Assembly (NCBI GenBank): GCA_002753135.1
Contig: PDZV01000003.1
Coordinates: 1 to 64,000, forward strand
Length of the DNA stretch: 64,000 nucleotides
Origin: Magnetococcales bacterium WMHbinv6
GTDB lineage: Bacteria > Pseudomonadota > Magnetococcia > Magnetococcales > Magnetaquicoccaceae
Direction of reading: 5' to 3'
Shown: positions 7,220-38,964 of the stretch, piece after piece
How the letters are laid out: each line of letters opens with the position of its first letter
How positions within the stretch are numbered: the first letter of the stretch is position 1
Program-made: the position numbers and the translations under genes
The notes under the pieces: model-generated
Told to the model about the DNA's origin: nothing
The model's database searches: none
What the model saw: the letters and a program-made list of their open reading frames with translations, nothing else

Positions 7220-7596
7220 TGATGAATACCGACTCCGAATCAACCAGCAATCCCAAAGATCGCCGACATTTTTCGCGGGTTGAATTCCGCCATCAATTGA
7301 CCCTCACCAGCGACGAAGGGGAATATCCCGGGGCCTTCGATGACATCAGCCTGCGCGGCATGCTCTTTTGGAGCGATCCCCTGCCGGAAAAGGGCGAAGA
7401 GGTCTCCGGCACACTGATTTTGGGTGAAATTGAAATCCGCCTGAGCGGTGTGATCGTTCAGTCCAATTTGAATCGTGGTGCCGCTGTGCTTTTTCAAGGA
7501 TTGGATGTGGACAGCTTCAGCCATTTACGACGACTGGTCTCCTTGAATATGGGCGATTCAGAAACCATTGATAAAGAATTTTTTGCTTCACTGTAG
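7216..7596 (+). CDS. PilZ domain protein, probable c-di-GMP receptor
   Basis: 126 residues, essentially one PilZ domain. Both c-di-GMP contact motifs can be read: RRHFSRVEF near residues 15-23 (RxxxR) and DDISLRG near 42-48 ([D/N]xSxxG). There is no membrane segment and no fused output domain, so it would act by binding a partner. The start codon overlaps the stop of the kinase gene by 4 bp, which implies translational coupling. A terminator follows 30 bp after its stop. The target is unknown; MSHA-type pili encoded at 59-63 kb would be one plausible c-di-GMP-controlled system. Confidence 0.85.
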   Translation: MMMNTDSESTSNPKDRRHFSRVEFRHQLTLTSDEGEYPGAFDDISLRGMLFWSDPLPEKGEEVSGTLILGEIEIRLSGVIVQSNLNRGAAVLFQGLDVDSFSHLRRLVSLNMGDSETIDKEFFASL

Positions 7597-9029: not shown

Positions 9030-10460
9030 TCAAAGCGGGAGAGAGGCAGGAAAAATTTTACCAGGATTCAACAACCCTTTTGGATCAAAGAGTGCTTTCA
9101 TCTCTCTTTGCAAGCGCAAAGAGACTGGATCCAACTCCCAAGGTACGTAAGCCTGCTTTTGTATCCCCACACCATGTTCGCCTGACAGGGAGCCCTGCAG
9201 TTGCAAAACCAGTTGAAACAGACGGGCCAACAACGGCTCAACCAGCGCCATCTGCTCGCTATTGGCCGGATCCACCAGCAAATTGACATGAATATTGCCA
9301 TTGCCCGCATGGCCAAAATTGACAATGGGAATGGCAAACTCGGCGGAGAGGGCGGACACACCGGCCATCAATTCTGGCAAACGGGAAACCGGCACCACCA
9401 CATCTTCATTGATTCTTTTCGGAGCCAATTTTTTTAACGTGGGCGACAAGGCATAGCGGGCCGCCCAAATGCTCTCTGCCTCTTCTGCACCGGCCTGCAA
9501 TAATTCGATACACGACAAACGCTGCAAACGGGCCACCACTGCCGCCACCTGTTCTGATATGCCAGCCTGACTGCCAGACAACTCCACCAACAACATGGCC
9601 TTGCCCTCTGCCGGAATGGCCACCGCTCCACTCCGACGCAACAGATCCAGGGCCGATTCATCGAGAAACTCAATCGCTGTTGGCGTTTCACCTTCTGCCA
9701 TCAAGGTGCAAACCCCTTCGGTTGCCTCGGCAACCGAGGCAAACAGCACCCGCAATAAACGCTTTGTTTCCGGCACGGGTGCCAGCTTCAGGGTTGCTTG
9801 CGTCAGCACGGCCAGCGTTCCTTCCGAACCGATCAACAGGCGGGTGAGATCATAACCCACCACCCCTTTGCTGGTGCGCCCGCCAGCGGTCAGCAGCGAA
9901 CCATCCATCAGAACACCCTGCACACCCAACACCCAGTCACGGGTCACCCCATAGCGCACCGCGTTGGCACCCGCCGCACACATGGCCAGATTGCCACCGA
10001 GCGAACAACTGCGCGCAGAAGAGGGATCCGGCGGCCAAAACAGCCCCTCTTTTTTGAGCTCTGCCTGCAATCGGCTATGCACCACCCCTGGCTCCACCAC
10101 GGCCAACCGGTCGTCGCGGGAAATTTCCACAATCCGATTCATGCGCTGCAACGAAAGAATAATACCTCCCTGCACCGCCAGCGCTCCACCAACGTTGCCG
10201 GTTCCTGCCCCTCGCGGCACAACCGGAACCCCGGCCTGATGGCAAAGCCGCAAAGTCTGCTGCACATCCGCCTGACTTGCCGCCAACACCACCGCCCAGG
10301 GGGGATGACGAACACCGGTATTATCCCAGGCATAGACCTCCCGCTCTGCCGCTCCTGCCAACACCTGCTCCGCCGACAAGGCGCGGCGCAGCTGTTCGAG
10401 CAGAAGGGAGAGAGGCTCAGCGTCCAGAGCCGGGCGGGGCGATGGGGGAGACAGATTCAT
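9030..10460 (-). CDS. FAD-binding oxidase, glycolate oxidase GlcD / D-lactate dehydrogenase type
   Basis: 476 residues. It has an N-terminal FAD_binding_4 (PCMH) domain with PRGAGTGNVGGALA and DPSSARSCSLGGNLA, and a C-terminal FAD-oxidase domain ending with NFGHAGNGNIH and LSGEHGVGIQK, which hold the metal/substrate-binding histidines. The family oxidises 2-hydroxy acids (glycolate, D-lactate, D-2-hydroxyglutarate). GlcE and GlcF partners are not next to it, so a D-lactate or D-2-hydroxyglutarate dehydrogenase role is also possible. ATG 10458-10460 is preferred; GTG at 10467-10469 is in frame. The 5' end overlaps the end of the BON lipoprotein gene by 44 bp. Confidence 0.82.
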   Translation of the reverse strand: MNLSPPSPRPALDAEPLSLLLEQLRRALSAEQVLAGAAEREVYAWDNTGVRHPPWAVVLAASQADVQQTLRLCHQAGVPVVPRGAGTGNVGGALAVQGGIILSLQRMNRIVEISRDDRLAVVEPGVVHSRLQAELKKEGLFWPPDPSSARSCSLGGNLAMCAAGANAVRYGVTRDWVLGVQGVLMDGSLLTAGGRTSKGVVGYDLTRLLIGSEGTLAVLTQATLKLAPVPETKRLLRVLFASVAEATEGVCTLMAEGETPTAIEFLDESALDLLRRSGAVAIPAEGKAMLLVELSGSQAGISEQVAAVVARLQRLSCIELLQAGAEEAESIWAARYALSPTLKKLAPKRINEDVVVPVSRLPELMAGVSALSAEFAIPIVNFGHAGNGNIHVNLLVDPANSEQMALVEPLLARLFQLVLQLQGSLSGEHGVGIQKQAYVPWELDPVSLRLQREMKALFDPKGLLNPGKIFPASLPL

Positions 10461-32843: not shown

Positions 32844-33512
32844 ATGCCAGAGCCTTTATTTCCTCTCTTTTTGCAGCTGACCGGTCGTCCTTGCCTGCTG
32901 ATCGGGGGTGGGGCTGTTGCCGAGGAGAAAGCGGCCCGACTGCTGGCTGCCGGTGCCCGCCTGACCATTGTTGCCCCTTCCCTGTTGCCCACCTTGCAAC
33001 GTCGGGCAGAACAACAGGAACTCCTTTGGTTGGCAGAACGGTTTCAGGCGCATCATTTAAACGGCATGTGGTTTGCTGTCAGTACCCTGCAGGATGCCAG
33101 CGTCAATCGTTACCTCTTTGAAGAGGCCAATCGGCGTCACCTGTTTCTCAATGTCGTTGATCTCCCCCATTTTTGCACCTGTCACTGGCCAGCTTCTTTG
33201 GAACGCCCGCCGGTAACCGTTGCTTTTTCCACCGCAGGTACAGCCCCTGCCTTGGCCGGCTATCTGCGGCAATTACTTGAGAAAACATTACCGCATCGTC
33301 TCGGGGAGGTAGCTGAATGGATCTCCGCATGGCGTCAGCGGGTACACCCCTTGCTGCCGGATCTGGAAGCCAGAGGCCAATTTTGGCGTCAACTCTTTGC
33401 CAAAGGAGTGGTAGAACGTTTTGCCGCAGGAGAACAGGAACAGGCAGAACAGATCATTCAACAGGCCTTGCAGGCGTTAGCCCCTCCAGCACAGGATGAG
33501 CAGCATGACTGA
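32844..33512 (+). CDS. Precorrin-2 dehydrogenase/ferrochelatase-like, siroheme synthase N-terminal domain
   Basis: 222 residues. Matches the CysG-N/Met8p/YlnF family, which oxidises precorrin-2 to sirohydrochlorin with NAD and may insert Fe2+ for siroheme. The NAD motif is LLIGGGAVAEEKAARLL; others are AVSTLQDASVN, LNVVDLP and AFSTAGTAPALAGYLR, followed by the dimerisation helices. The usual catalytic-site stretch NVVDDPELCDF is here NVVDLPHFCTC, so the second Asp is replaced by Leu. No fused uroporphyrinogen methyltransferase domain is present. It overlaps the next gene by 17 bp. Confidence 0.82.
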   Translation: MPEPLFPLFLQLTGRPCLLIGGGAVAEEKAARLLAAGARLTIVAPSLLPTLQRRAEQQELLWLAERFQAHHLNGMWFAVSTLQDASVNRYLFEEANRRHLFLNVVDLPHFCTCHWPASLERPPVTVAFSTAGTAPALAGYLRQLLEKTLPHRLGEVAEWISAWRQRVHPLLPDLEARGQFWRQLFAKGVVERFAAGEQEQAEQIIQQALQALAPPAQDEQHD

Positions 33513-33900
33513 TCGCGTCAAAGCCTATCGGGATCGGCAAAAGGCGGCAGGGTTGGCGCAATTGAGCTTATGGCTCGACACAGCAACCTTGCACCTCCTG
33601 AAACAGATTGCGGAAAAACAGAATCGCCCCCCGGGTGAAATTGTCGCAGAGGCGATGCAAGCGTGGTTGGCAGACAAGCCGGAATGGGCCAACGACACGG
33701 TCAAAAAGGAGGAGAGCGCCCCCCTCGCCCCCCTTTTACCGGAACTGATTCGCCAAGTGGTTGCCGAACTCTTACCCCATCTCACCCCACCACCTGCCGA
33801 GCCGGAAAAGCAACCGCCAGCAACCAGCATCGACACCCCCAGTGATCCCAGCCACACCCTGCCCTGCCCCTTTTTGTATCACCGCCCCCTGCCTTTTTGA
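33496..33900 (+). CDS. Small protein with ribbon-helix-helix-like N-terminus
   Basis: 134 residues; no family recognised with certainty. The first ~55 residues (DRVKAYRDRQKAAGLAQLSL, then WLDTATLHLLKQIA and GEIVAEAMQAWL) have the strand-helix-helix rhythm of ribbon-helix-helix DNA-binding proteins. The rest is a Pro-rich, probably unstructured tail (PPPAEPEKQPPAT). ATG 33496 and ATG 33505 are both possible; both overlap the end of the preceding gene. It is the last gene before the IS remnant, and the tail may have been altered by the insertion. DNA binding is an inference. Confidence 0.55.
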   Translation: MSSMTDRVKAYRDRQKAAGLAQLSLWLDTATLHLLKQIAEKQNRPPGEIVAEAMQAWLADKPEWANDTVKKEESAPLAPLLPELIRQVVAELLPHLTPPPAEPEKQPPATSIDTPSDPSHTLPCPFLYHRPLPF

Positions 33901-33911
33901 GCGGTTCAGCG

Positions 33912-34069
33912 GGAACATTGTGCCCCTCGGGCAAAGGCACTGCAACAGCAAAACCGTTGGGCTCTGCCCCCCCCGCTTGGGACCGTGCCTAATTGCCGAC
34001 CACGGAGATCATTCGCAAAAACCATTTCACACTCAAACAAATCTTCCGCGACAACTGGGATCGGTTCCT
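33912..34069 (+). mobile_element. Truncated left end of an IS91-like element, copy 1
   Basis: This 158-bp stretch is closely similar, in the same orientation, to 38010-38222. Shared blocks are AACATTGTGCCC-like sequence, CTGCAACAGCAAAACCG, GGGCTCTGCCCC, and then the start of a transposase frame (IIRKNHFTLKQIFRDNWDRFL). Relative to copy 2 about 55 bp just before the transposase start is missing, and homology stops abruptly at about 34069. Only ~22 residues of the transposase N-terminus remain. It lies immediately right of the RHH-like gene and left of the Rpn gene. Assignment to IS91 rests on copy 2. Confidence 0.7.
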
Positions 34070-34119
34070 GCACCACTTTCCTCCTCTGCACGGGAAATTG
34101 TGCCGCGCGAAAGGCGATG

Positions 34120-35049
34120 TCAATTGGCAAAAACGTCGTCGATGGACTTGGCATCCAGGATACGGTCGGTCCAAGTTTCGAGTTGCTCAAGGCTGGCTTC
34201 CGTTATCTTTGTCTTGATTGGATCCGGTGCCTGGCCGAAGCGGCGTTGCAACAAACGTAGCAGGACGTTGGCTTCGCCTTTCTGAATCCCAGACCGCTCC
34301 GCATATGTCACGTATTGCATCTTGCTCTCCTCCTCAAACGAGATCAGTTCCTTCAAAAACCGCTCTTCCATTTCCGCCGGCAGACTCATTACCCACTCGA
34401 TGAACTTGTAAAGATTGGAAATTTGCTCACGACTGAACCCGCGCTGGTACAAACCGCGCGTGATGCGCCACCGCTCTTGGTAACGCGTCTGTGGCTGATG
34501 CTTGGTCTTTTTGGCTTGCAGATGTGCCAAAACAACCATGGCAAAAGGATTGATGGATGCTTCCAACTCCGGCAGGCGGTTCAAATAGTCCAACAATTTT
34601 ATCGTGGTGAACTGGTAGGACAGCTTTGTACCCCACATCTCATAGACATACTCCGAAGGCCGCCAACTCGGCTCTTCATCGGCCAAAATGGCCAAGGCGA
34701 CAACAGATTTGTTGTAGAAGTCTCGTACACGGGATTGGACGGTATTCATCCGTTCGGCGAAATCAGCCGTCCGATTCCCATGTACCTCCACATGGATCAG
34801 CACCCAGATTTCGCCGCCTTTGAGCAACCACACCTTGGCAAGCAAGTCTACACGACGGTCTTTGCTATCCGCTTGCTTCACGATCCGGCTGAATTCTTGA
34901 TCCAAAAACTCAACGGGACGATTCCAGTCAATCTCGTCATGCGCCACGCACAGGAAAAAAACCAGGAACTCCTTGAAGCAAGTCTTCGTGACCTCTTTCC
35001 ACGGCGAGTCATACTCGTCTGTCTGCCGCTGGCTGGTTTGCTTGATCAT
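34120..35049 (-). CDS. Rpn-family PD-(D/E)XK nuclease / recombination-promoting protein with DUF4351 C-terminus
   Basis: 309 residues. The N-terminal PD-(D/E)XK core is visible: an Asp in DRRVDLLAKVWL (about 69-80), then the catalytic pair in VLIHVEVHGN (about 90-99) and a helix with RMNTVQSRVRDFY. The C-terminal ~60 residues (LLRLLQRRFGQAP, LEQLETWTDRILDAKSIDD) form a DUF4351 domain. Rpn proteins (RpnA-E) are Ca/Mg-dependent DNases that raise recombination, and related genes are often multi-copy and IS-like. ATG with AAGGA seven bases upstream. The 3' end lies 50 bp inside from the IS91 remnant. Codon use looks less GC-biased than its housekeeping neighbours. Confidence 0.82.
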   Translation of the reverse strand: MIKQTSQRQTDEYDSPWKEVTKTCFKEFLVFFLCVAHDEIDWNRPVEFLDQEFSRIVKQADSKDRRVDLLAKVWLLKGGEIWVLIHVEVHGNRTADFAERMNTVQSRVRDFYNKSVVALAILADEEPSWRPSEYVYEMWGTKLSYQFTTIKLLDYLNRLPELEASINPFAMVVLAHLQAKKTKHQPQTRYQERWRITRGLYQRGFSREQISNLYKFIEWVMSLPAEMEERFLKELISFEEESKMQYVTYAERSGIQKGEANVLLRLLQRRFGQAPDPIKTKITEASLEQLETWTDRILDAKSIDDVFAN

Positions 35050-35280
35050 TCGTTTATCCTTGGCATAACAGTCGTACTCCCGTCTTCAGAAGCCAGTTTG
35101 GATCCAGAAGGTTTTGGACTGCGTCTGTACTCTGGCTCGCTGAATACGCCGGTACAAACAGATCGGCATGGCCCACCACGACATCCGCTGCCATGTGCTG
35201 AGTGGTGATATCTGTTGCTATTTCGTATCATTTCTTTGCCGTCGCCAGTATCACGCCGATTCCTTTTCTGAGTTAGCGAT

Positions 35281-36576
35281 CTAACCAATCGCTTGCGTCA
35301 GGTGCATCCTATCCGACAAGATCAATTTTTCATCGCCTGCCTTGCTTCCCATTTCGAACGGCAGTACCCACAAGCTCATGTTGGGGTTGAACGAAAACGG
35401 TGCCAGTGGTGCCGTGAAGGTTGCACTTTTTGGATAGATGAGAACCAGTTCTTTTTCCACCTGATCCTCCAGAATATACTTGTGTCCGTAAGCAAAAATT
35501 TGATAAAAATCACTTTGCGAGATGTTGTATTTTTTGCCGCACGCTTGCTCAGCAAATCGCTTCCATTTTATATCCAGGATCACACATCGCCCTCCATACT
35601 CCATCAGCAAATCCGGGCGCAGATTGAAAAATCCCTTGCCGTTGTGCTGGCATAAATAGGATTCGTGCGATTGCGAGGTAATCTGCACCGTCTTCGGTAT
35701 GTCTCGCCGCAAAGTCGCTTCCACAAAACGCTCAAACAGCTTTTCCATCGGGAAGAGCATGCTCATTCCATGCCACTGCCCTTGCAGCGCAACCGGAAGA
35801 TGACGACCCAACACAAGCTGGCACCAAGGCAAAATAGGCGCATAGTGTGCCATAAGCTGGCCGTGACGCCAGGCATTGAAATCGAGGCTAAACTCACGCG
35901 AGGCCGGAATCTCGGCCAACACTTGGAGCAACTCGTGGGAAAGTCGCCAGTTTGCGGCCTCCCGGGTCGACTTGGCGACTAGCAAGAGTGCAGATTTTAT
36001 CAAGCGGTTTTCGGGAAAATCGAGTGAAAGTGTATCATAGCGCGTATGAAAATAGTGACAACGATCAGGTGGTTGACGCAATTGCCGCACGACGTCGAGT
36101 TGCCCGCGCAGGTGGTGTTGTTCCTCTGCAATGCGCAAATAATCAAATTTTACACCGCACCTGATGAGGTGCTTGAGCGCATGGAGGAATTGGTGCCTGA
36201 CCCATTCGGACAGTGGCATTTGAAACAAGGCGATGTCGGCCACGCCCACTTGGCGTGCCTTCAGATCAAGTGCCGCCTGGATCATGCGTGCGAGCAGTTC
36301 ACGTGAGACTTCCTTTGATGAATCGGCATCATGATGCTTGGGTAGAATTTCCAGCGTCGTCCCGCACGGAGTTTCCAGGATCCCAACAAAATTATCCAGT
36401 CGTAGCCACTGTGTGTTCTCCACCTGCAGTAGTTCAGCACCACTGGCACGGAACTGGCTCGCCAAACGGCACAGCCAATCGAATGCGCTTTTGGAGACCG
36501 TTGCACAGTCCAAGCTTGGTTCAACTTGGCAGGTCGTGAGCTTTGCGTACTCGCGAACAACAACCGTTTCCGTCAA
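35281..36576 (-). CDS. mcrC: McrC, nuclease subunit of McrBC-type modification-dependent restriction
   Basis: 431 residues from TTG 36576. That start overlaps the mcrB stop (TTGA) with AAGGA six bases upstream; a TTG at 36609 would overlap mcrB by 37 bp. The N-terminal part contacts McrB and stimulates its GTPase; the C-terminal PD-(D/E)XK nuclease is seen as FNLRPDLLMEYG and CVILDIKWK, with Asp, Asp and Lys in place. E. coli McrC is 348 residues; this one has the larger N-terminal half common in McrBC relatives (YFHTRYDTLSLDFPENRLIK). It cuts DNA when McrB translocates from a modified site. Confidence 0.9.
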   Translation of the reverse strand: MTETVVVREYAKLTTCQVEPSLDCATVSKSAFDWLCRLASQFRASGAELLQVENTQWLRLDNFVGILETPCGTTLEILPKHHDADSSKEVSRELLARMIQAALDLKARQVGVADIALFQMPLSEWVRHQFLHALKHLIRCGVKFDYLRIAEEQHHLRGQLDVVRQLRQPPDRCHYFHTRYDTLSLDFPENRLIKSALLLVAKSTREAANWRLSHELLQVLAEIPASREFSLDFNAWRHGQLMAHYAPILPWCQLVLGRHLPVALQGQWHGMSMLFPMEKLFERFVEATLRRDIPKTVQITSQSHESYLCQHNGKGFFNLRPDLLMEYGGRCVILDIKWKRFAEQACGKKYNISQSDFYQIFAYGHKYILEDQVEKELVLIYPKSATFTAPLAPFSFNPNMSLWVLPFEMGSKAGDEKLILSDRMHLTQAIG

Positions 36577-37949
36577 TTTTTTTCCTTGATCGCGGTCATC
36601 ACGTGCCAACCGAGTTGGCGCGTATTGTAGTTATTTCCTTTCGAGTTCAAGCAGCTTACGCGCAGTTTCTCGGCTAATCGGCGCAGTACCGGATAAGCCA
36701 CCAGCTTCACACCATCCTTAAAGACAGTGATGGTAGTATCGGCGTCGCGATCGATCCGATAACCGTCGTACTCCACAGATTCTAGCGCACCAAAGCTTGG
36801 TCGGTCAGCATAATCAACCGCTCCTGCCGCACTCAAGCTTGGCCGCGTAGACGGAACTGCTGTGTGATCGATCACACCCAGGTAGGCATCCACCCGTTCA
36901 AATGCATCGGAGTTAATTTCCCATATCTTGGCCTGCACCTTGCCTTCGAAATCATCACCGAACAGCTCCGACATGTTGGCGCTGTCTGGCAGCACGAATC
37001 GGTTAACAAGCAGCTTGCGGTGGTCATTGAGAACCCAGCTGATGCGCTCCCAATCATCAAAGAAATACTCTTTGAAAAGCGGCATGATCTGTTCCTGGAA
37101 GATGAGTGCCAGGCGTTCGATGGTAGGATCTTCCCTTAAAGGCAAGAAATAAGCATGCCCAAGACAGCGCTCACGGTCCAACAGCGCTTCGATCCGCAAA
37201 TTCATGATGGTGAGCAGTTGCTCAATGTCGATGCCGCCGACGTTAACACCGGCAAGCAGTTCAGGCCTAGGTGGCATCTCCTTGAACACGAAACGCCGTC
37301 GCAGTGCAATGTCTAAGTTGGCCAGAGAACGATCGGAGGTGTTCATAGTCCCGATCAAGTACAAGTTGTTGGGAATGCAAAAGGTTTTTTTTGAATAAGG
37401 CAGTACGACCGACAGAGCCTCGCTATTGCCAGCACGCTTGTTCGGTTCAATCAAGGTAATGAGTTCCCCGAAAATGCGCGAGATATTGCCGCGGTTGATT
37501 TCGTCAATGATCAAGACGCGGGCCTGCGGGCCCTGCTGTGCCTGTAGGTCGCTTTCGGGCACTTGGTCTACGACAACCCTCGTAGTCGCGTCCTCGCAGA
37601 TAACCTTGAATATGCCCGGCATAGGAAAAAACTTTAGCTGGCCGGTGTTTTCGTCGGGCTCGGCTCGCAATCCCTCCACGAAGTCTTCGTAACTGAAACT
37701 TTGGTGGAAGGTCACGAAGCGGACATGCCCAGATGCTTCCAATTCGCTGAATCGCGCCCGCAATTGCGCTCGGTTGGCCCGGTGTTCGATGAGAAAGCCT
37801 GGGTCCAAAATGGCAAGAGCTTCATCAATCGTATGGTGGGTCTTGCCGGTTCCCGGTGGACCATACAAAATCTGATTTAAAGGTTGGTGCTGAGCATCTT
37901 CATCCGTCGTGTTATCATAAACATAATTTTGACCACTGTCCATAATCAA
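36573..37949 (-). CDS. mcrB: McrB-type AAA+ GTPase with rearranged domains
   Basis: 458 residues. AAA+ motifs: Walker A ILYGPPGTGKTHHTI (about 27-41), Walker B VLIIDEINRGNISRIFGEL, and the McrB signature GTMNTSDRSLANLDIALRRR. In E. coli McrB, about 160 residues of DNA-binding domain precede the P-loop; here only 26 do. Instead there are about 100 extra residues at the C-terminus: a linker (STRPSLSAAGAVDYADRP) and a compact last part (about 393-458) with YDGYRIDRDADTTITVFK and NYNTRQLGWHVMTAI. That part may be the target-recognition domain. It is first in an operon with mcrC, coupled by overlapping stop/start. Confidence 0.88.
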   Translation of the reverse strand: MIMDSGQNYVYDNTTDEDAQHQPLNQILYGPPGTGKTHHTIDEALAILDPGFLIEHRANRAQLRARFSELEASGHVRFVTFHQSFSYEDFVEGLRAEPDENTGQLKFFPMPGIFKVICEDATTRVVVDQVPESDLQAQQGPQARVLIIDEINRGNISRIFGELITLIEPNKRAGNSEALSVVLPYSKKTFCIPNNLYLIGTMNTSDRSLANLDIALRRRFVFKEMPPRPELLAGVNVGGIDIEQLLTIMNLRIEALLDRERCLGHAYFLPLREDPTIERLALIFQEQIMPLFKEYFFDDWERISWVLNDHRKLLVNRFVLPDSANMSELFGDDFEGKVQAKIWEINSDAFERVDAYLGVIDHTAVPSTRPSLSAAGAVDYADRPSFGALESVEYDGYRIDRDADTTITVFKDGVKLVAYPVLRRLAEKLRVSCLNSKGNNYNTRQLGWHVMTAIKEKN

Positions 37950-38009
37950 GCCCTGCTATAAAGAGACATCAAAAGGCGAATATTCGTTGCTTGAAGTGAT
38001 ACTCATAGT

Positions 38010-38222
38010 GAACATTATGCCCTTCGGGAAAAGGTACTGCAACAGCAAAACCGTGGGGCTCTGCCCCACCCCCCGCTGGGGACCGTACCGGTCCCAAGCC
38101 CCCTGCAATCACCATGACTTCCCATCTTCTTTTTCTCCTTTATAATCGCCGACCATGGAGGTCATTCGCAAAAACCATTTCACGCTCAAACAAATCTTCC
38201 GCGACAACTGGGGTCGGTTCCT
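38010..38222 (+). mobile_element. Left end of an IS91-like element, copy 2
   Basis: Direct-orientation copy of the 33912-34069 sequence, but with the extra ~55 bp (38090-38145) that copy 1 lacks. It begins 60 bp upstream of the mcrB start codon. It holds the conserved leader and the transposase start ATG at 38155. Homology between the copies ends at about 38222; the transposase frame goes on to 38388 here. Together the two copies bracket Rpn and McrBC. Confidence 0.7.
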
Positions 38223-38388
38223 TGAAGTTTACCCGACGCCGGTTACATGGTTTGTGGCTTACAACGTCTGGAAAATCCTTAATTGCCGAGAGCCCGATAG
38301 TCTCGGATACGCCACCTACGCTTGCCCGGATCAACTGCCAAACCCTCTGCCGCACGTCGAAGCAAAGCTCCAAGCTGCCTACCCATGA
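38155..38388 (+). pseudogene. Truncated IS91-family transposase, N-terminal zinc-binding part
   Basis: 77 residues starting EVIRKNHFTLKQIFRDNWG. The piece NVWKILNCREPDSLGYATYA resembles the N-terminal zinc-binding region of IS91-family transposases, where a Cys-containing segment and LGY-TY-CP normally lead into the first zinc finger. Here only the first Cys of that finger is reached (ACPDQ) before the frame goes off into unrelated residues (LPNPLPHVEAKLQ) and stops. The HUH catalytic region is absent, so the copy is dead. The likely original element encoded a ~350-400-residue protein. Confidence 0.6.
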
Positions 38389-38604
38389 CAATGCAACCAC
38401 AAGCCAGACACTACAAAGACTATCACTAATATTTTTATGCGCTATTTCAAACACTTAAAAAAACTAAAATAATCTGTATCGACGAAACGCTGGCTTTCAA
38501 CGGAAAATTTTCCAGATTTCATCTATAGGCAAATTCGATCAACTCATAAATTCCCGTGTGCATTTTATTATCTTTCCGAGACATTAAAAAGTCGGTGACC
38601 CGGC
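38389..38604. other. AT-rich gene-free stretch after the IS remnant
   Basis: Noticeably more A+T than its surroundings. The only structure seen is the perfect 12-bp palindrome GGAAAATTTTCC (38502-38513). No gene, terminator or clear target-site duplication was found. It probably marks the right border of the inserted region. Confidence 0.35.
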
Positions 38605-38868
38605 TTAAACCACCCGGGAAAATCCGCCCCCCTTCGGCGTGGCCGGCGGCTCCTCTGACCTGCGTTCTCGTATGGATTCGCTTTTGCTTTTGAGTTGGAA
38701 GCGCAAACAGGGCTCACCGGAGGATTGCAACACCTGCATCCACGGCCACTGTCTGCTTTTGAAGCCCATCGCCCGGCAACCCCGGGGAAACTCTGCATCC
38801 CAGGTGATCTGAAAATGGGCACAGTTTCGGCAATCAATACCGCTTTTACCTTCCTCTTCTTGACTCAC
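38605..38868 (-). CDS. Conserved small Cys-rich protein of unknown function
   Basis: 87 residues from GTG 38868 (TTG 38895 is the other option). Four Cys follow a pattern I recognise from small conserved bacterial proteins without known function: CRNCAHFQITWD, GCRAMGFKS and SGEPCLRFQ. Such spacing (C-x2-C, then two single Cys) suggests a metal or cluster site. The last ~25 residues are Arg/Glu/Ser-rich. It lies 96 bp downstream of hom on the same strand. Some relatives have been labelled uracil-DNA glycosylase in databases, which the sequence does not support. Confidence 0.6.
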   Translation of the reverse strand: MSQEEEGKSGIDCRNCAHFQITWDAEFPRGCRAMGFKSRQWPWMQVLQSSGEPCLRFQLKSKSESIRERRSEEPPATPKGGGFSRVV

Positions 38869-38964
38869 CCTGTCATCACCCGTTCGCAACGACAACTGCT
38901 GATTGATGGCAACCGGTTGTTGCTGTGCCTGACCTGCGCCGATCAGAAAGGGGCACCGCGCTGT

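Follow-up and report, generated by a model that had tools for sequence, protein, structure and literature searches.

The DNA known so far to travel with IS91 and ISCR elements consists mostly of resistance and virulence genes. Transposition of IS91 and of IS801 begins at the right end of the element and halts at the left end or at a sequence similar to it (PMC3189936). In the products of IS801 obtained in vivo, a complete copy was preceded directly by 290-1431 bp of further DNA, which stopped at a tetranucleotide identical to the 5' end of IS801, GAAC; most IS801 fragments found in genomes have been attributed to rearrangement, not to one-ended transposition (PMC3189936). Rpn genes are described as genes-within-genes that serve as toxin-antitoxin and anti-phage systems, in which a C-terminal RpnS arises from an internal start. 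RpnS varies by four-residue repeats 8-20 residues past this start, and in some species RpnS standing by itself carries the annotation DUF4351 (PMC10327210). For McrBC, specificity inserts in the GTPase domain of McrB as well as EVE-McrB fusions have been published (PMC11090510, PMC7641849).

Both kinds of gene occur together in the window analysed here, a stretch of 64,000 nucleotides from Magnetococcales bacterium WMHbinv6, where they lie between two remnants of one IS91-family element. The 4.67-kb segment at 33913-38584 is best explained as a defence islet that moved as one unit by one-ended transposition of the IS91 type and is now immobile, a reading that we regard as probable, without great assurance. 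This kind of event is known; what is unusual is the defence cargo, which includes a restriction motor without a DNA-reading domain. The islet offers a readable case of how a rolling-circle element can gather and move anti-phage genes, in which the two ends, the intact relative and the empty sites can each be identified.

A repeat search of the window finds two direct repeats on the plus strand, 4.1 kb apart, which align without gaps in one block of 80 bp (94% identity) and another of 69 bp (87%). The initial annotation had described these as near-identical repeats that include the leader and start of an IS91-like transposase, with an Rpn gene and McrB-McrC between them on the opposite strand, and this description is borne out: the copies agree at 145 of their 158 shared positions (92%), both contain the leader and first codons of an IS91-type transposase, and open reading frames and profile matches place rpn, mcrC and mcrB, all intact, on the minus strand between them. 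Both ends had been taken for truncated. For copy 1 (33913-34069) this holds, since it is a solo left (ter) end that runs from its GAAC terminus at 33913 to about codon 22 of the transposase; it is 80% identical to an intact element in another genome of the genus, and past 34069 no homology to that element is found. It has also lost sequence present in copy 2, as had been noted, although the loss measures 53 bp instead of about 55. Copy 2 (38010-38584), on the other hand, is not a truncated end. Over 575 bp it matches the intact element on either side of a gap (38010-38333 to 1632-1954 of locus L093 at 82%, and 38327-38592 to L093 3007-3275 at 76%), and is thus a complete element minus about 1,050 bp inside the transposase, deleted in frame. 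What is left of the coding sequence is a 77-residue open reading frame at 38155-38388 (plus strand), which joins the first 60 transposase residues in frame to the last 17 and gives a weak match to Zn_Tnp_IS91 (E 0.019). Because copy 2 runs to about 38584 and keeps both termini, the segment ends near 38584 and not at 38388, where it had been drawn at first. The two copies are closer to each other (92%) than either is to the intact element (78-80%).

The intact element lies in a genome of the same genus (G006, contig C114, locus L093), and its 430-aa protein, encoded at L093 1776-3068, has the HUH/Y2 transposase domain and the zinc-binding domain of the IS91 family (Y2_Tnp PF04986, E 1.2e-34; Zn_Tnp_IS91 PF14319, E 1.1e-17). 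The earlier proposal of an IS91-family origin, of defence-type cargo and of loss of the transposase is supported. Comparison across several genomes shows that left ends of these elements begin with GAAC or GGAC, after which come AT, a variable base pair and a TGCCC-hairpin. Set beside the published IS801 termini, they have the GAAC-type left end with its GC-rich hairpin, a different right end and no terminal inverted repeats. The right (ori) end of copy 2 carries the core TTTTATTATCTTTCCGAGACAT at 38555-38584 on the plus strand, and it is placed near 38584 because a right-end core, TTTTTCCGAAACAT, is common to independent elements of four other genomes (G006, G018, G042 and G028). Further support for this boundary comes from G042 (contig C223, near position 205 of locus L096), where the GAAC left end of a second element adjoins the right end of a complete IS91-family element in a head-to-tail junction. 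The bases 3' of right ends, checked for the GAAC/CAAG-type tetranucleotide beside which the family inserts without target duplication, are GAAC, GGAC, CAAA, CGAG and TAAA; host intergenic sequence is too little conserved for the empty sites to be aligned, or the insertion point placed, to the base. In summary of family likeness, the islet shares with IS91, IS801 and ISCR the Y2 transposase with zinc-binding N terminus (in its intact relative), the GAAC/GGAC left end with hairpin and the distinct right end, but differs from them in that its own transposase is deleted.

The islet lies between two host genes. The left flanking gene (33496-33900, plus strand, 134 aa), called RHH-like in the initial annotation, is conserved beside cysG in G004 and G006 and stops 12 bp before the islet. 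The right flanking gene (38605-38895, minus strand, 96 aa) is conserved beside hom in G002, G003, G004 and G006, and its stop lies 20 bp after the islet, which thus fills the gap between the two genes except for these 12 and 20 bp. In G004 and G006, the two closest genomes of the same genus, the site is empty: the 134-aa gene after cysG adjoins the 96-aa gene before hom, with about 65-110 bp and no insertion between the stop codons. In G003, too, these two genes stand side by side next to hom, but the surroundings further out differ, and cysG was not found there; G002 has the 96-aa gene beside hom and other genes beyond it on its contig, and hom has other neighbours in G001 and in genomes further removed. 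In G004 (L049 2199-3161), the homolog of the left flanking gene contains a long in-frame tandem repeat of units of about 90 bases, which the window gene lacks. Vertical descent of the islet was rejected on the basis of the empty sites and of McrB, which was found in none of 47 other genomes of the order. The islet is real and lineage-specific and, as the proposed comparison of the interval between cysG and hom shows, the arrangement is not fixed in relatives. The original notion of a small mobile defence islet is upheld as regards its IS91 ends and its absence from the site in the two closest genomes, and movement of the whole segment as one unit is the best reading, though an inferred one; for the suggestion that Rpn might itself have shuffled the spot, no evidence was found. 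At 51-52% GC, the cargo stands at the bottom of the range of its neighbours (52-59%).

The boundaries of the segment coincide exactly with a left (ter) end on one side and, on the other, with a right (ori) end from the same family of elements. This geometry fits one-ended IS91-type transposition because the cargo lies upstream of a complete copy with an intact right end and is bounded on the outside by a second GAAC left end, at 33913. In such an event, replication would have started at the right end of copy 2 and proceeded leftwards through it, missed the copy's own left end, and continued through mcrB, mcrC and rpn. It would then have halted at the next left end, that of copy 1, after which the whole stretch would have been inserted into the gap between the two host genes as a single rolling-circle unit. 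Later, the in-frame deletion would have taken most of the transposase of copy 2, and copy 1 would have lost its 53 bp; loss of the transposase would then have fixed the islet in place. As in the IS801 products, the cargo sits directly upstream of a complete copy and is bounded by the left-end tetranucleotide. The islet differs from these in that a second genuine left end, with 150 bp of element behind it, takes the place of a chance tetranucleotide at the outer boundary, and in that its cargo is a 4-kb defence pair, larger than those reported; a maximum of about 1.4 kb for IS801, and the attribution of most IS801 fragments to rearrangement (PMC3189936), count against movement as a single unit. 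So does the cut in copy 1 at 34069, for which the donor must have undergone a truncation of its own beforehand, and neither a donor arrangement nor a second copy of the whole block was found anywhere searched. A simple tandem of two elements was also considered and rejected, there being no right-end core directly upstream of 38010.

The main rival to a single one-ended unit is stepwise accretion, in which one element inserted after the left flanking gene, rpn and mcrBC arrived separately, and a second element inserted upstream of mcrB, so that the bracket simply marks a tolerant intergenic site. The 8% difference between the copies agrees with this and speaks against a single unit, since it implies either that the elements already differed on arrival or that the event is old; elements of this family can also insert side by side, as in G042, and Rpn and McrBC differ in origin and are not neighbours in any of 15 McrBC relatives fetched. 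Nevertheless, at least three independent events would be needed in a gap of about 65-110 bp, and the outer boundaries would have to fall on a left end and a right end in a genome without any other copy of the element. No left ends other than these two were found in the genome, and they share a strand and lie 4.1 kb from each other; we put the chance of such a placement under independent random insertion at about 0.1%, a figure for a pattern chosen after the fact. The lack of McrB in 47 other genomes of the order, and the intactness of all three cargo genes although the copies differ by 8%, also count for the single unit, and we consider stepwise accretion possible but rather unlikely. Two same-orientation copies around a cargo are also expected if the cargo and one element arrived on a circular intermediate that recombined with a resident element to give element-cargo-element, which is the usual account for ISCR1 arrays. 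Here, however, the 3' part of the first copy would have to have been deleted up to the 3' flank of rpn, an extra step, and no right-end core was found after 34069, so that integration of a circle seems improbable.

The single one-ended unit also draws on the scarcity of the element in its host. Apart from copy 2 itself, a genome-wide search with copy 2 recovered nothing but the two blocks of copy 1 (E 1.4e-28 and 3.0e-21), and the left-end pattern has two exact matches in the genome, both in the islet. Three weaker matches were seen; the best of these was checked, and this third left-end-like match (C51:47198) was dismissed as chance, as it sits within a gcvT-like coding gene. The search for full-length relatives that had been recommended gave a divided result: the intact element of G006 was recovered, whereas none was found elsewhere in the host genome with copy 2 or the G006 transposase, in a 96%-complete draft of 80 contigs from which a copy could be missing. 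The G006 transposase served as query because a PF04986 search gave no match in the host or in control genomes. Other genomes of the order mostly have 0-9 left-end matches, and G042 has 186, with none to the reversed control pattern, which looks like a large expansion of non-autonomous IS91-family elements. This 4.5-Mb genome has intergenic miniature elements of about 190-230 bp with IS91-type left and right ends, for example at 1081-1300, 7238-7425 and 9805-10020 of locus L176. Copy 2 resembles these MITE-like elements in being non-autonomous with both ends kept, but they are non-coding and about 220 bp long, whereas copy 2 retains coding remnants of the transposase within its 575 bp. In G006, a partial IS91-type left end starting with GGAC (contig C166, L094 1643-1869) adjoins, as judged by eye, a large Cas3-type helicase-nuclease-like open reading frame and an sfsA-like one, possibly another defence-gene neighbourhood.

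Within the left end lies a 57-bp GC-rich palindromic motif (38054-38110 in the window, with copies in G001, G003 and G024) that also occurs alone in many copies; G001 has about 20, and they are sometimes clustered in both orientations. Its multi-copy occurrence alone in several genomes of the order could suggest that the repeats belong to an ordinary intergenic family of the host, without relation to a transposase, and that the enclosed genes are old residents. The initial annotation had named such a family as a possible refutation, but the repeats include transposase codons and match the intact element at both ends, only two copies exist in the genome, and the enclosed genes are missing from the same site in sister genomes. 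This explanation was rejected on the match to the intact element, and we regard it as very unlikely indeed.

The cargo appears, from its sequence relatives, to combine an Rpn toxin-antitoxin family common in the order with a foreign McrBC system. The pair seems to have been assembled from two sources because Rpn is abundant in the order, McrB is absent from the 47 other genomes of the order, and Rpn stands beside McrBC in 0 of 15 fetched McrBC neighbourhoods. If the copies were identical on arrival, their 8% difference would correspond to about 150 changes in the cargo, with about six stop codons expected without selection; none is seen (P ~0.003). The cargo may thus have been kept by selection, a conclusion that depends wholly on the copies having been identical when they arrived.

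The mcrC gene (35281-36609, minus strand) encodes a McrC nuclease subunit of 442 aa that matches PF10117 McrBC over the whole model (E 4.8e-93) and is 67-68% identical to McrC of Massilia and Pseudoduganella. Adjacent to it, mcrB (36573-37949, minus strand) encodes a 458-aa GTPase subunit with the Walker A motif GPPGTGKT, the Walker B motif LIIDEINRG and the MNTxDR signature as MNTSDR; its sequence and structural model match McrB of Thermococcus and E. coli in searches of the PDB and of folds. None of 47 other genomes in the order gave a McrB match at E 1e-20. Among the McrBs found, those of Massilia and Pseudoduganella are closest (65-80% by segment), ahead of Halopseudomonas and others, and relatives on plasmids are all below 60% identity. 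The system is like the Massilia/Pseudoduganella type in its complete McrC, its gene order and its McrB GTPase core and C-terminal domain (66-80% identical by segment). It differs in the reader: alignment shows that a stretch of about 150 residues, present between Walker A and Walker B in the nearest relatives, is missing from the window McrB, which has no N-terminal reader either. A low-confidence model of this insert (mean pLDDT 55) has its best fold match in the EVE-HNH restriction enzyme VcaM4I (E 8e-4), followed by EVE and YTH proteins; a sequence search of the insert against solved structures gave no match, so only the fold search was informative. Some more distant McrBs align without the insert but have long N-terminal regions, and the window McrB has neither. 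Its C-terminal part, about 70 residues shared with Massilia and Halopseudomonas, is confidently folded in the model and could conceivably act as a reader. The protein is predicted to assemble with McrC and to hydrolyse GTP, but without a modified-base reader.

As a natural McrB without a DNA-reading domain, it could be useful for asking whether McrBC works, or can be re-aimed, without one. It is conceivable, though we think it unlikely, that IS91-family rolling-circle elements of the order package anti-phage genes as cargo and that selection has retained this reader-less McrBC in a different role, perhaps that of a nuclease which is driven by GTP and finds its target through its C-terminal domain or through a partner, for instance the neighbouring Rpn. 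A promoter for mcrB supplied by the element was rejected, as the best sigma-70-like match (37942-37914) overlaps the start of mcrB. Promoter matches in the region are near the shuffled expectation (7 against 4.4), and no Rfam RNA was found.

The rpn gene (34120-35049, minus strand) encodes a putative Rpn-type nuclease/toxin of 309 aa with a DUF4351 C terminus (E 1.9e-11). Within it, an internal gene rpnS of 66 aa is predicted at 34120-34320 on the same strand, following the published RpnS layout: an in-frame ATG at 34320 has the ribosome-binding-like site GAGGAGGAG about 7 bases upstream, and homologs differ in length, by 4 or 8 residues, at a point about 10 residues past the internal Met. In these features the gene resembles the RpnL/RpnS type. 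It differs in its N-terminal nuclease part, which is recognised by no Pfam or NCBIfam model and has no nuclease match among solved structures in the PDB; here, the motif residues D and E of RRVDLLxKV and HVEV are conserved in four homologs. The PADLOC models matched neither Rpn nor McrC. Relatives occur throughout the order, with 16 further matches in the host genome, many over the C-terminal domain only, and strong matches in 26 of 48 genomes. The closest is that of G006 (71%), with which DNA homology ends at the gene, indicating that Rpn did not arrive inside a longer shared block. In another genome (G044, contig C88, 1158-5928), five Rpn genes form a head-to-tail array, each about 53-55% identical to the Rpn of the window.
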